From Fimbriimonas sp. (GTDB taxonomy: Bacteria > Armatimonadota > Fimbriimonadia > Fimbriimonadales > Fimbriimonadaceae), in the NCBI GenBank assembly GCA_029866005.1, contig JARXAE010000021.1:1-64000 (forward strand): a stretch of 64,000 nt of DNA, read 5' to 3'. The translations under genes and the position numbers were made by a program. This document shows, piece by piece, positions 13,880 through 17,307 of the stretch. How positions within the stretch are numbered: position 1 is the first letter of the stretch; each line of letters begins with the position of its first letter. The notes below the pieces were generated by a model. It had not been told where the DNA came from, made no database searches, and worked only from the letters and a program-made list of their open reading frames with translations.

Positions 13880-13919
13880 AGTGAGCGGTGAGAATGTTTC
13901 TCACCGCTCACTTTTTTTG
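13880..13919 (+). terminator. Strong hairpin terminator shared by trxA and the E1-like gene
   Basis: The 15-bp perfect stem AGTGAGCGGTGAGAA (13880-13894) pairs with 13898-13912 around loop TGT and is followed by seven T. The stop codon of the convergent E1-like gene (13908-13910) lies inside the 3' arm. Any termination of that gene through this hairpin would need the structure to form within translated sequence. Confidence 0.9.
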
Positions 13920-14639
13920 TGCGTCGGTCGAGCAGATCGGGCAGACCGGATTTCGCTTGACTCCAAGCGTTCGAAAGTTAGACCGGAGCAAATCTGCGGT
14001 CAAGAGTTGGCCGCCAATCACTTCACCTAGAATGATTCGGAGCACCTGCGCGGCCTGAGTCGCGCCGACCCAGCCGACTGCCGGTCCGATTACCCCGGCT
14101 TCATCACAACTGGGCGGAGCGGGTTCATTGCCAAAAACACACTCCCAGCACGGACCATTCGCACCCGAAGCTAGTACTGATCCCGCCCAGCCAACTGCCC
14201 CACCATAAACCCATGGTATCGAGGTCGCAACACTAAATGCGTTGATGATCCTCCTTGGCTCTAGCCGATCTGTTCCATCCAGGATCACAGATGCTGTCGA
14301 TGCGAAATGACCAATGCTGTTGGCATCCAGAGCCACGTTTGCGGGGAGGACTTCGACGAGCGGATTCATCCTTGAGAGAACTCGGGCAGAAACCATCGCC
14401 TTGGACTCGCCAATGTCTTCAACACGGTACAGCAATTGACGACCAAGGTCTGGTTCGTCAACGACTCCGGGGTCCATGATGACGATTCTCCCCACGCCTG
14501 CTCGCACCAGCCAGGGCAGCGAAGCACACCCGAGACCACCGACCCCAACGGCCAAAACGGTCGCTTCGGCTAGAAGCTTTTGACCTTTCTCGCCGACTTC
14601 TGGCAATTTCATCTGGCGAGAATAGCGACCTTGGTGCAC
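13908..14639 (-). CDS. E1-like adenylating enzyme (ThiF/MoeB/HesA family)
   Basis: A 243-residue single-domain E1-like enzyme. Such enzymes adenylate the C-terminal Gly-Gly of ubiquitin-like sulfur carriers or modifiers. Features in order from the GTG start: RYSRQ (5-9), the usual ThiF/MoeB opening; GVGGLG nucleotide loop (32-37); IMDPGVVDEPDLGRQ; ILDGTDR; zinc pair CWEC (Cys164, Cys167); likely catalytic Cys178 in PPSCDEAGVIGP; and second zinc pair CPIC (Cys233, Cys236). All the expected residues are present and there is no rhodanese domain. GTG 14639 is chosen because the longer frame to 14759 would overlap the divergent ubiquitin-like gene, whose ATG is 44 nt away. No thi or moa gene is nearby, so that neighbour is the likely partner. 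Confidence 0.92.
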   Translation of the reverse strand: MHQGRYSRQMKLPEVGEKGQKLLAEATVLAVGVGGLGCASLPWLVRAGVGRIVIMDPGVVDEPDLGRQLLYRVEDIGESKAMVSARVLSRMNPLVEVLPANVALDANSIGHFASTASVILDGTDRLEPRRIINAFSVATSIPWVYGGAVGWAGSVLASGANGPCWECVFGNEPAPPSCDEAGVIGPAVGWVGATQAAQVLRIILGEVIGGQLLTADLLRSNFRTLGVKRNPVCPICSTDAQKK

Positions 14640-14683
14640 AATACTGATTGTTACCTTTTCTGATCCGAGCGGAGCTACTGACG

Positions 14684-15043
14684 ATGAAAATAGCCTTCTT
14701 TGACGAGACAACCACGGGAGTTCGGTCGGAGGGACCGACAGTTCAGTTTGAATTCCCAAAAATCACGGTTCGGACGCTCATCGAGAGCCGAATACAGTCC
14801 GAGGTAGATCGCCGGAGCCAGGACATTCCAATTCAAAAGCGGATTGTGAATCCGGTCAAAAAGCCGCTCTCGATCAAGGTCAACTTTGAGACTCAGATCA
14901 AGGCGGCTTGCGAGGCATTCGATCGCGGGCAACTCATCGTTCTCCTTCCTGGACGACAGGCGCAGGCTCTCGATGAGACTCTAACATTGGAAGATGGGGA
15001 TGAGGTGACCTTCCTGCGGCTAGTTCCGTTGATCGGGGGATAA
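14684..15043 (+). CDS. Ubiquitin/MoaD-like protein with C-terminal diglycine
   Basis: A 119-residue acidic-basic mixed protein. It opens with a beta strand (MKIAFFDE) and has a charged helical middle (TLIESRIQSEVDRRSQ). It closes with DGDEVTFLRLVPLIGG, which matches the last strand and exposed Gly-Gly tail of MoaD/ThiS-type beta-grasp proteins (MoaD ends in a similar DGDEV...GG pattern). Gly118-Gly119 are the final residues, so no processing would be needed before adenylation. It is longer than ThiS or MoaD (about 65-90 residues); the extra part is in the middle. ATG 14684 has CGGAG upstream. Its stop lies 5 nt before the DUF4132 gene. The carrier or modifier role is inferred from the tail and the neighbouring E1. 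Confidence 0.8.
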   Translation: MKIAFFDETTTGVRSEGPTVQFEFPKITVRTLIESRIQSEVDRRSQDIPIQKRIVNPVKKPLSIKVNFETQIKAACEAFDRGQLIVLLPGRQAQALDETLTLEDGDEVTFLRLVPLIGG

Positions 15044-15048
15044 ACAAG

Positions 15049-17307
15049 GTGTTCGACTTAATCAAACAAAAGTTAGTCATCACCGAGTTTCTTGTTGGCT
15101 GGAAGCGCAGGATGGATAGCCCTCTACATCGTTGGGAAATCCACGAAGACTATGCAAAAGCGTGTTTAGAACTCTCCCCAGAAATGCAGTCCCGGGTAGC
15201 AGAGCACCTGTTGCAGGTTGTCAAAAGTGCAAAGTACAACTCGACAGCAGAGTGCTTCCCTTGGCTGAGAGCAAAACTCGAACCTGAGATTCTTGTCCGA
15301 TTTTGTGATGCACTTATTGAGAAAGGTAACGTTGGCGATGAGAGCCTTGACACTTTTCGGTCAATCTGGAAGCGGATCTCCCCGAATGAAGCACAGCGGC
15401 TCGGAAAGCTGACCCTCCAAAAACTACGAGACACAGGATGGGACATCCATCACCGGAGAATGGTCGCGGCGGCGGAGCAAGCAATTGGTGGGAAACGGGC
15501 GGTTATCGAGTCGTGGCAAGAGCCTGTCTTTGCCGAGGAGAGCATTGCCCCTCTCGTACAGCATGCCCTTGCATACTCTGGCGCCACACCGACCAAGAAA
15601 TGGCTCAAAAGTGCGGGGGCCATCGCCGAAAAGACAAGTTTTCAGCCTTTGCATCAAGCCCTCGATGCAGCCTTGTTGGAAATCTCCCGCCAGCCCAACC
15701 AGGTGAACCCCGAGATTGCTGAGCAGATGAGAGGACTGGTGGTGTTTCTCAGTTTCTATCCCTCGCAAGAGTCCGCACAGTTGCTGGGTCGCGCATTACG
15801 AGTCTGCTCGGACAAGATTGGCGGGCAAGGGGCCAGATGCGCAAAAGGATTTGGCGGGGCAGTTTGGGCGTTGCAAGAAATGGGGACATTCGATGCACTC
15901 GCAGCCCTAAGTCTCGGCAAGGCCAAGGTCAAGACCCAGACGATGGCAAATCAAATCGAATCAGCGCTTGCCCAAGCCGCCGCGGCGCAAAACATCACCA
16001 TTGCAGAACTCGAAGAGCGAATTGTTCCAGACTTCGGACTCGACGCGAACGGAGTCGCCAAGATCGATTTAGGCGAAGAGCGGGCGGAACTCCGTTTAGA
16101 CGCCTTGGCAAGAGCCTCCATCCATTGGTTCGGCGCAACCAAAGAACTCTCGGCTCCAAGCCAGGCGATGAAGAGTGGGTTTGCCGACGAGGTTGCCTTT
16201 TTCAAGCGGCAGAAGAAGGAATTAGAAGCAACAGTTTCCGCCCAGAAGCGGCGTCTGGATCGCCAGATGATCAGCCAGCGGCGGATACCGCTCGATCAAT
16301 GGCAAGAGAACTACCTGGAGCATCCTGTGATGCGAGTTCTGACGAACAGGCTCATCTGGGAATTCAAACACGGCGAGCAGCTGACCTTAGGCTTCTCGGA
16401 CCAGGCTCCATCGGGCGGCAAAGTAACGGTCAAACTATGGCACCCGATTGATTCGACGGAGGAGGAGTCGCAAGATTGGCGCGATGCAGTTATTTCGAGG
16501 GAGATTGTTCAACCGTTCAAGCAAGCATTTCGAGAGCTATACGTTCTGACGCCGGCCGAGGAGCGGACGAATACCTACTCCAACCGATTTGCTGCCCAGG
16601 TTATCCGTCAGCACCAAGCCGTCACTCTGATGCGGGATCGGGGTTGGAAGGCGACATTGCAAGGATTCTTTGACGGAGGTTGGGGTTACCCGCAGAGGAT
16701 GCTCGAAGAGTGGCTACTAGTGGCAGAATTCTTCGTTGAAATAGCTGGCGAAGACATGACGGAAGCCGGGATAGCGACCTATATCACGACTGACCAAGTT
16801 CGGTTCACTAGGGATAACGAACCGCTGGAGTTGATACGGATTCCCCCCGTGGTCTTCAGTGAGATTTGCCGAGATGTTGATCTGTTTGTAGGAGTATCGA
16901 GCATTGGTAACGACCCCGAGTGGACGGATCGGGGAAATCAAGGATTCACTCAGCAGGCGTGGCACAATTCTTCCTTTGGAGACCTCAACCAACTCGCGAT
17001 CACTCGAAAACAGGTTCTTGAACGGCTGCTGCCGCGTTTGGCAATTGCGAGTGTTGCCCATCTGGAAGATAACTTCTTGATCGTCAGGGGGACTCACCAC
17101 TCTTACAAAATCCACTTAGGTAGCGGAAACATCTTGATTCAGCCGAACAACCGGTATCTGTGCATCGTGCCAAGCGGCAAAGACTCAACCGCAGGAATCT
17201 ACCTTCCCTTCGAAGGAGATCGGACGCTGGCGGTGATTCTGAGCAAGGCGACAATGCTGGCTGCGGATAACAAGATCACCGACCAAACGATCTTGCTCCA
17301 ACTCTAA
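15049..17307 (+). CDS. DUF4132-type (MolR/YehI-like) large protein
   Basis: A 752-residue cytoplasmic protein. The N-terminal half is helical and repeat-like (HEAT-like character, about residues 30-330). The middle matches DUF4132: AQKRRLDRQMISQRRIPLDQWQ, HPVMRVLTNRLIWEF, KLWHPID and REIVQPFKQAFRELYVLTPAE (about 395-530). The C-terminal 150 residues match the region typically following DUF4132: VDLFVGVSSIGNDPEW (near 609), RKQVLERLLPRL, and YKIHLGSGNILIQPNNRYLCIVP (near 686-708). The molecular function of DUF4132 proteins is not established. GTG 15049 is 5 nt after the diglycine-protein stop, with GGGGGAT upstream, so they are co-translated. No WGR domain is seen. Confidence 0.85.
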   Translation: MFDLIKQKLVITEFLVGWKRRMDSPLHRWEIHEDYAKACLELSPEMQSRVAEHLLQVVKSAKYNSTAECFPWLRAKLEPEILVRFCDALIEKGNVGDESLDTFRSIWKRISPNEAQRLGKLTLQKLRDTGWDIHHRRMVAAAEQAIGGKRAVIESWQEPVFAEESIAPLVQHALAYSGATPTKKWLKSAGAIAEKTSFQPLHQALDAALLEISRQPNQVNPEIAEQMRGLVVFLSFYPSQESAQLLGRALRVCSDKIGGQGARCAKGFGGAVWALQEMGTFDALAALSLGKAKVKTQTMANQIESALAQAAAAQNITIAELEERIVPDFGLDANGVAKIDLGEERAELRLDALARASIHWFGATKELSAPSQAMKSGFADEVAFFKRQKKELEATVSAQKRRLDRQMISQRRIPLDQWQENYLEHPVMRVLTNRLIWEFKHGEQLTLGFSDQAPSGGKVTVKLWHPIDSTEEESQDWRDAVISREIVQPFKQAFRELYVLTPAEERTNTYSNRFAAQVIRQHQAVTLMRDRGWKATLQGFFDGGWGYPQRMLEEWLLVAEFFVEIAGEDMTEAGIATYITTDQVRFTRDNEPLELIRIPPVVFSEICRDVDLFVGVSSIGNDPEWTDRGNQGFTQQAWHNSSFGDLNQLAITRKQVLERLLPRLAIASVAHLEDNFLIVRGTHHSYKIHLGSGNILIQPNNRYLCIVPSGKDSTAGIYLPFEGDRTLAVILSKATMLAADNKITDQTILLQL

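Follow-up and report, generated by a model that had tools for sequence, protein, structure and literature searches.

A candidate ubiquitin-like module formed by an E1-like enzyme, a Gly-Gly protein and a DUF4132 protein in Fimbriimonas sp. and other bacteria

Introduction

The stretch of DNA considered here (64,000 nucleotides from Fimbriimonas sp., phylum Armatimonadota; assembly GCA_029866005.1, contig JARXAE010000021.1, positions 1 to 64,000), hereafter called the window, carries three adjacent genes coding for an E1-like adenylating enzyme, a small protein ending in Gly-Gly (the ubiquitin-like protein, UBL) and a protein of the family DUF4132. A preliminary description of this DNA, made from its letters alone, had interpreted the three genes as a ubiquitin-like module. 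This work covers the anatomy of the locus, the predicted fold of UBL, the conservation of its tail, the insertion of the three genes as one unit, the absence of any other E1 or carrier from the genome, and the joint loss of the Gly-Gly end and of one cysteine, Cys705, of the DUF4132 protein.

Gene content of the locus

Exactly three genes, those for E1, UBL and DUF4132, lie between trx and murJ in the window, where they occupy 3.4 kb. The features of the locus are as follows:

14684..15043, plus strand: UBL, beta-grasp protein (predicted) of 119 amino acids, without Pfam family, ending LVPLIGG-stop
15035..15040, plus strand: codons of the C-terminal Gly118-Gly119 of UBL, right before the stop
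15049..17307, plus strand: DUF4132 protein of 752 amino acids, GTG start 5 nucleotides past the UBL stop
17161..17163, plus strand: codon of DUF4132 Cys705 (YLCIV), in DUF7737; proposed thioester acceptor
13908..14639, minus strand: E1-like adenylating enzyme of MoeB/ThiF type, 243 amino acids, GTG start at 14639 and stop at 13908, divergent from the UBL and DUF4132 genes
14106..14108, minus strand: codon of E1 Cys178, at the catalytic-loop Cys position of ThiF/MoeB (alignment to both)
14640..14683, unstranded: divergent intergenic region of 44 base pairs from the E1 start to the UBL start, with presumed promoters
13880..13912, plus strand: terminator with a stem of 15 base pairs after trx, the left edge of the inserted unit, overlapping the E1 stop

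The preliminary description was accurate on this anatomy: the E1 is complete with its motifs exactly where they had been placed, the 119-residue protein does end in LVPLIGG, and the DUF4132 gene does begin 5 nucleotides past its stop. No sigma-70 consensus was found in the 44-bp region between E1 and UBL.

The E1-like enzyme

The motifs of the enzyme are Arg8 (in RYSRQ), GVGGLG at 32, DLGRQ at 64, GESKA at 77 and DGTDR at 121; they include the GxGGxG loop and the Arg, Lys and Asp of the ATP site. Cys178 occupies the loop position, and there are two CxxC zinc pairs, Cys164/167 and Cys233/236. The enzyme belongs to the ThiF superfamily (PF00899, E=2.2e-57, 194 bits, cut-off 28.1), and its alignments with ThiF (1zud, E=4e-39) and MoeB (1jw9, E=1e-36) span the full protein. 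However, its scores lie far under the curated equivalog and subfamily cut-offs of the NCBIfam MoeB/ThiF models (179 against 275 for TIGR02356, 149 against 377 for TIGR02355 and 173 against 266 for NF004281), and it is therefore a family member but an orthologue of neither MoeB nor ThiF. The protein carries no rhodanese domain, and no E2 is fused to it or encoded nearby.

In the window's genome (97% complete) this E1 is the sole PF00899/ThiF-family protein, and neither ThiS/MoaD nor MoaE was found, so there is no other known carrier for it to serve. The ThiG matches of the same genome are at background level, weak and 50 to 90 residues long, as in most genomes tested.

The ubiquitin-like protein

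Structure prediction of the small protein had been set beforehand as a test of the module, and its outcome agrees with it. The AlphaFold2 model, built with 19 relatives in the alignment, has a mean confidence (pLDDT) of 82.4 and shows the predicted order strand-strand-helix-helix-strand-strand-strand followed by a loose tail, that is, a beta-grasp core with a flexible end. Nearly every match listed by Foldseek is to ubiquitin, SUMO or MoaD, at modest E-values (best 2e-3). The VIA-align matches (Z 8.0-8.9) include ubiquitin, SUMO, MoaD and the Caldiarchaeum ubiquitin; MoaD (5mpo) reaches Z 8.7 and the ubiquitins mostly 8.0-8.4, with a root-mean-square deviation typically of 1.8-3 over 68-78 residues, and several of these alignments place the tail of UBL on that of ubiquitin. 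From this predicted fold the small protein is confidently predicted to be a ubiquitin-like protein. At the sequence level, PF02597 (ThiS/MoaD) does not match the window's UBL and matches one of the 19 relatives at E 0.15, and a MoaD/ThiS profile from the same phylum gives a weak match in which the last strand and the Gly-Gly are aligned (P 0.0018, compared with P 0.12-0.67 for ten shuffled and one reversed control).

Spread of the pair UBL-DUF4132

UBL is present in 18 of the 291 genomes of Armatimonadota. A first scan with the window's UBL alone as query gave no relatives, and the whole UBL alignment of the phylum is too divergent to yield search patterns. The scan of bacterial and archaeal genomes gave 310 UBL loci, and 80 of them were retained for reading; the counts given on 82 UBL genes come from examined loci. 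These loci belong to Bacteroidota, Planctomycetota, Actinomycetota, Cyanobacteriota, Acidobacteriota, Verrucomicrobiota, Chloroflexota, Nitrospirota, Gemmatimonadota and other phyla. No UBL relatives were found in viral contigs, and no phage records contained the Deinococcus DUF4132.

The exact C-terminal Gly-Gly is kept in 82 of 82 UBL genes from many phyla, and the window protein is alike; the first Gly of the tail is part of one of the two search patterns, and the last Gly is in neither. For about 74 of these 82 genes, a DUF4132 gene on the same strand begins no more than about 1 kb further downstream, mostly at a distance of tens of bases, and UBL lies directly 5' of DUF4132 in some ten phyla. 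Chance pairing is excluded by both counts, that of the recurring pair and that of the Gly-Gly end. DUF4132 had been called the constant partner of the small protein, which is nearly so, and the small Gly-Gly proteins that the preliminary description mentioned next to DUF4132 in other bacteria are real and very widespread. The conservation of Gly-Gly holds for all those terminal ends, but it fails in a divergent subfamily that has partly lost it: four divergent UBLs end in AGA (two, in genomes G090 and G216), AGL (G095) or SGRLW (a Bacteroides plasmid). Apart from ThiF, no partner-like family recurs near the pair.

Some arrangements depart from the simple pair. In a Verrucomicrobiia metagenome-assembled genome there are three UBL matches in a row (L115 8471-11320), and in Hymenobacter one UBL is followed by three consecutive DUF4132 genes (L132 10460-18425). 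There is also a long form of DUF4132 (L209, L229, L036, L288) of around 1630-1740 amino acids, in which DUF5724 precedes DUF4132 and DUF7737 in the three proteins scanned by Pfam; it has its own divergent UBL of 135-177 amino acids with the tail LAGG, LAGA or LAGL.

The DUF4132 protein and its Cys705

The 752-residue protein consists of a HEAT-like solenoid (approximately 1-324), the DUF4132 core (373-533; PF13569, E=8e-42, 143.6 bits) and DUF7737 (652-752; PF24879, E=2.8e-38, 130.5 bits; cut-off 27). In its predicted structure, too, a HEAT-like solenoid comes first and an alpha/beta part after it. The listed Foldseek and VIA-align matches of this model are all helical-repeat proteins aligned with the N-terminal part; there is no E2 or E3 fold among them, the C-terminal domain being barely probed by these matches. 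A sequence-profile search found no solved structure for a DUF4132 protein. DUF7737 was considered as a mark of the UBL-linked proteins and rejected, since Pfam finds it in YehI-like proteins too.

Cys705 is present in 87 of 87 readable DUF4132 genes that follow a Gly-Gly UBL, and its equivalent is also found in four Deinococcus plasmid genes and in Novosphingobium. UBL-type DUF4132 paralogues without a directly adjoining UBL keep it. By contrast, Val or Phe takes its place in G090 and G216, where the preceding UBL ends in AGA; the DUF4132 of G095, whose AGL-tailed UBL is on a different contig, has Leu there, and the SGRLW-ended UBL of the Bacteroides finegoldii plasmid is followed by a long DUF4132 without the Cys (L292 3892-9409). 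Every readable YehI-like DUF4132 without UBL lacks it as well; among these, the proteins of about 900 amino acids from other Armatimonadota families (L211-L224) have neither a UBL neighbour nor a Cys705 equivalent. That Cys705 is invariant after a Gly-Gly UBL and absent where Gly-Gly has been lost is a new observation of this work.

In the DUF4132 tree the Cys-less rows fall into separate groups and need five changes, and the long-form ones stand in three places. The residues His465, Gln492, Arg495, Glu496 and Tyr498 of the core, with others, are kept in all groups, UBL-less proteins included. As they are conserved also in the Cys-less groups, general decay is a poor explanation of the loss of Cys705. 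Two of the genomes with non-Gly-Gly UBLs (G090 and G095) have no real E1; an exact coincidence of Gly-Gly loss with E1 loss was nevertheless rejected, given that G216, with its AGA tail, has an E1, and the link with Cys705 was kept as the main signal. An Acetobacter plasmid (L295 5338-8136) encodes a DUF4132 without UBL or Cys that groups with the UBL-linked type on a very long branch, possibly a further joint loss.

Linkage of the E1 and insertion as one unit

Among Armatimonadota, the E1 adjoins the UBL-DUF4132 pair three times: in the window, in G144 and in G036. The last two hold a separate housekeeping E1 besides the linked one. In Bacteroidota the order is UBL-DUF4132-E1 with the genes touching, in two Pedobacter species and in Flavobacterium sp. 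H122; in the survey of the Flavobacterium order (346 genomes) the best E1 match after the query was again in-operon, and the next ones examined were not. These Bacteroidota enzymes lack the CxxC pairs and the rhodanese domain. In the E1 tree the linked enzymes of the two phyla form separate groups, and the linkage thus arose at least twice.

In the two closest relatives of the window's genome (G001 and G018) trx and murJ are contiguous, and no comparable ThiF protein was found in either. Since the site is empty in both, E1, UBL and DUF4132 were gained or lost together, as a single unit.

Relation to known systems

The same pair is known from Deinococcus radiodurans as DR_A0165 (UBL) and DR_A0166 (DUF4132) (PMC9650054, PMC8533742), on plasmid 3 with a thioredoxin gene directly upstream (L288 3324-8611). 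This UBL ends in TALAGG and lies directly 5' of a DUF4132 with the Cys (FLCIV); unlike the window, the DUF4132 is of the long form with an extra DUF5724 and no E1 stands beside the pair. DR_A0165 is upregulated after gamma rays and H2O2, and its loss raises H2O2 survival; it binds thioredoxin, 157 proteins appear in all four of its co-immunoprecipitation sets, and the authors saw its likeness to MoaD/SAMP1 but took the protein to be Deinococcus-specific (PMC9650054). DRA0166 is upregulated by mitomycin C, a response that depends on IrrE, and the operon has been listed as a DdrO target (PMC8533742), in conflict with the report that no DdrO motif was found for DR_A0165 (PMC9650054). In these publications the pair is not recognised as part of a bacteria-wide, E1-linked family. 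No paper joining DUF4132 with ubiquitin-like proteins was found in our literature search, which covered papers available without subscription, and the pair is not mentioned in the two sections consulted of a 2006 survey of prokaryotic ubiquitin-like neighbourhoods (PMC1779556).

Urm1-Uba4 and SAMP-UbaA also combine a small beta-grasp Gly-Gly protein with a MoeB-type E1, have no E2 and are stress-linked, and E2-independent conjugation is known for Urm1 (PMC12645042). The window's system, known from sequence alone, differs from them in its E1 without rhodanese domain and in its dedicated large DUF4132 partner with a co-varying Cys. Regarding ThiS-ThiF and MoaD-MoeB, the E1 is a full-length homologue of both enzymes and UBL is alike in tail motif and fold, whereas UBL is longer (119-160 amino acids, with an extra helix) and outside PF02597, the E1 is under the equivalog cut-offs and thiamine or molybdopterin partner genes are absent here. 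The Bil, type II CBASS and 6A-MBL operons share an operon-encoded E1 and a ubiquitin-like logic; the trio of the window does not belong to them, for it has no E2, JAB or cyclase, and in PADLOC the E1 matches the E1-E2 models only over the shared nucleotide-binding core while UBL and DUF4132 match none. Finally, E. coli MolR/YehI has the DUF4132 core (E. coli was matched in the PF13569 control), but YehI-like proteins lack an adjacent UBL and Cys705, the compared ones being those of about 900 amino acids from Armatimonadota and not that of E. coli itself.

Proposed mechanism and alternative explanations

The interpretation of the locus as a ubiquitin-like module is supported, as a hypothesis, by new and independent evidence, and none of the three findings that had been named as able to refute it (no beta-grasp fold, no conservation of the terminal Gly-Gly, an E1 never linked to the small protein) was made. 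In the reading that we favour, at about an even chance of being right, the three genes form a self-contained activation cassette. The E1 would use ATP to adenylate Gly119 of UBL, and the activated UBL would then pass to its near-constant partner DUF4132, most likely as a thioester on Cys705 of DUF7737, both the transfer and its direction being presumed. DUF4132 could then act as a transferase with an E2/E3-like role, built on a new scaffold, and place UBL on other, putative target proteins; alternatively, it may itself be regulated by carrying UBL. As the Deinococcus pair has been reported to be stress-induced, the analogy suggests a role in the stress response. A bolder version, which we consider rather doubtful, is that DUF4132/DUF7737 would be a new class of ubiquitin-like transferase unrelated to known E2/E3 folds; in many bacterial phyla it would take a Gly-Gly modifier from a MoeB-type E1 onto Cys705 and, under stress, conjugate this modifier to proteins of the cell.

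Several observations weigh against the activation cassette. As to the E1, the linkage expected by the preliminary description stands in so far as it recurs in two phyla by separate lineages and, in the window, the E1 lies within the same insertion as the pair. An E1 next to the pair is nevertheless exceptional, being present at 6 of about 98 loci, and most bacteria with the UBL-DUF4132 pair would have to rely on a distant housekeeping MoeB/ThiF E1. No E2, JAB or deconjugase recurs near the pair, one Gly-Gly UBL is an orphan in a genome without any DUF4132 (G008; L023 9179-9571), and neither activation nor conjugation of UBL is reported in the literature searched. Regarding Cys705, only two changes between Cys and non-Cys are required in all by the strongly supported branches of the tree, Gly-Gly is missing from just four UBLs, which all belong to a single long-form subfamily, and the AGA-tailed UBL of G216 coexists with an E1. 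Besides, the core residues persist in proteins without UBL, so that an ancestral activity of DUF4132 which does not depend on UBL is probable.

It is conceivable, though improbable in our opinion, that UBL is a sulfur carrier: the E1 would make a C-terminal thiocarboxylate and DUF4132 would be an enzyme that uses this sulfur, with Cys705 as acceptor or relay, following the logic of ThiS/MoaD/TtuB or a persulfidation like that of Urm1. The E1 is indeed in the MoeB/ThiF branch, the tail of UBL resembles MoaD/ThiS tails, DUF4132 has enzyme-like invariant residues and Urm1 couples conjugation to cysteine persulfidation (PMC12645042). Nevertheless, genes for rhodanese, cysteine desulfurase or sulfur assimilation do not recur next to the pair, the linked E1s of Bacteroidota are devoid of CxxC pairs and rhodanese domain, and the window's genome lacks MoaD and its partner in molybdenum cofactor synthesis, MoaE. 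We regard as equally unlikely a non-covalent role of UBL, as subunit or as regulator of DUF4132 in the manner of TmoB or YukD in their complexes, with the E1 as an occasional add-on. The almost constant pairing without a nearby E1 fits this explanation, and so do the lineages that keep the pair with AGA, AGL or SGRLW tails, two of these genomes having no E1; it accounts poorly for a free-ending Gly-Gly kept across phyla and lost together with Cys705, and for an E1 that entered with the pair in a genome without other carrier. That the E1 is an unrelated housekeeping MoeB/ThiF gene standing there by chance is strongly disfavoured and very improbable: its divergent transcription and the frequency of ThiF-family enzymes would agree with it, but G001 and G018, with the empty trx-murJ site, have no comparable protein, the genome offers no MoaD/ThiS or MoaE to serve, G144 and G036 hold their housekeeping enzyme separately, and the linkage recurs in Bacteroidota.

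Implications

If the activation cassette is real, bacteria would have a large ubiquitin-like family that has gone unrecognised until now (one scan gave 310 loci), and the widespread DUF4132 proteins would acquire a partner for biochemistry as well as a residue that can be tested. With one E1, one carrier and one DUF4132, the window's genome makes an unusually clean test case, and a physiological assay exists already, because induction of the D. radiodurans homologue by DNA damage and by oxidative stress has been reported (PMC9650054, PMC8533742).

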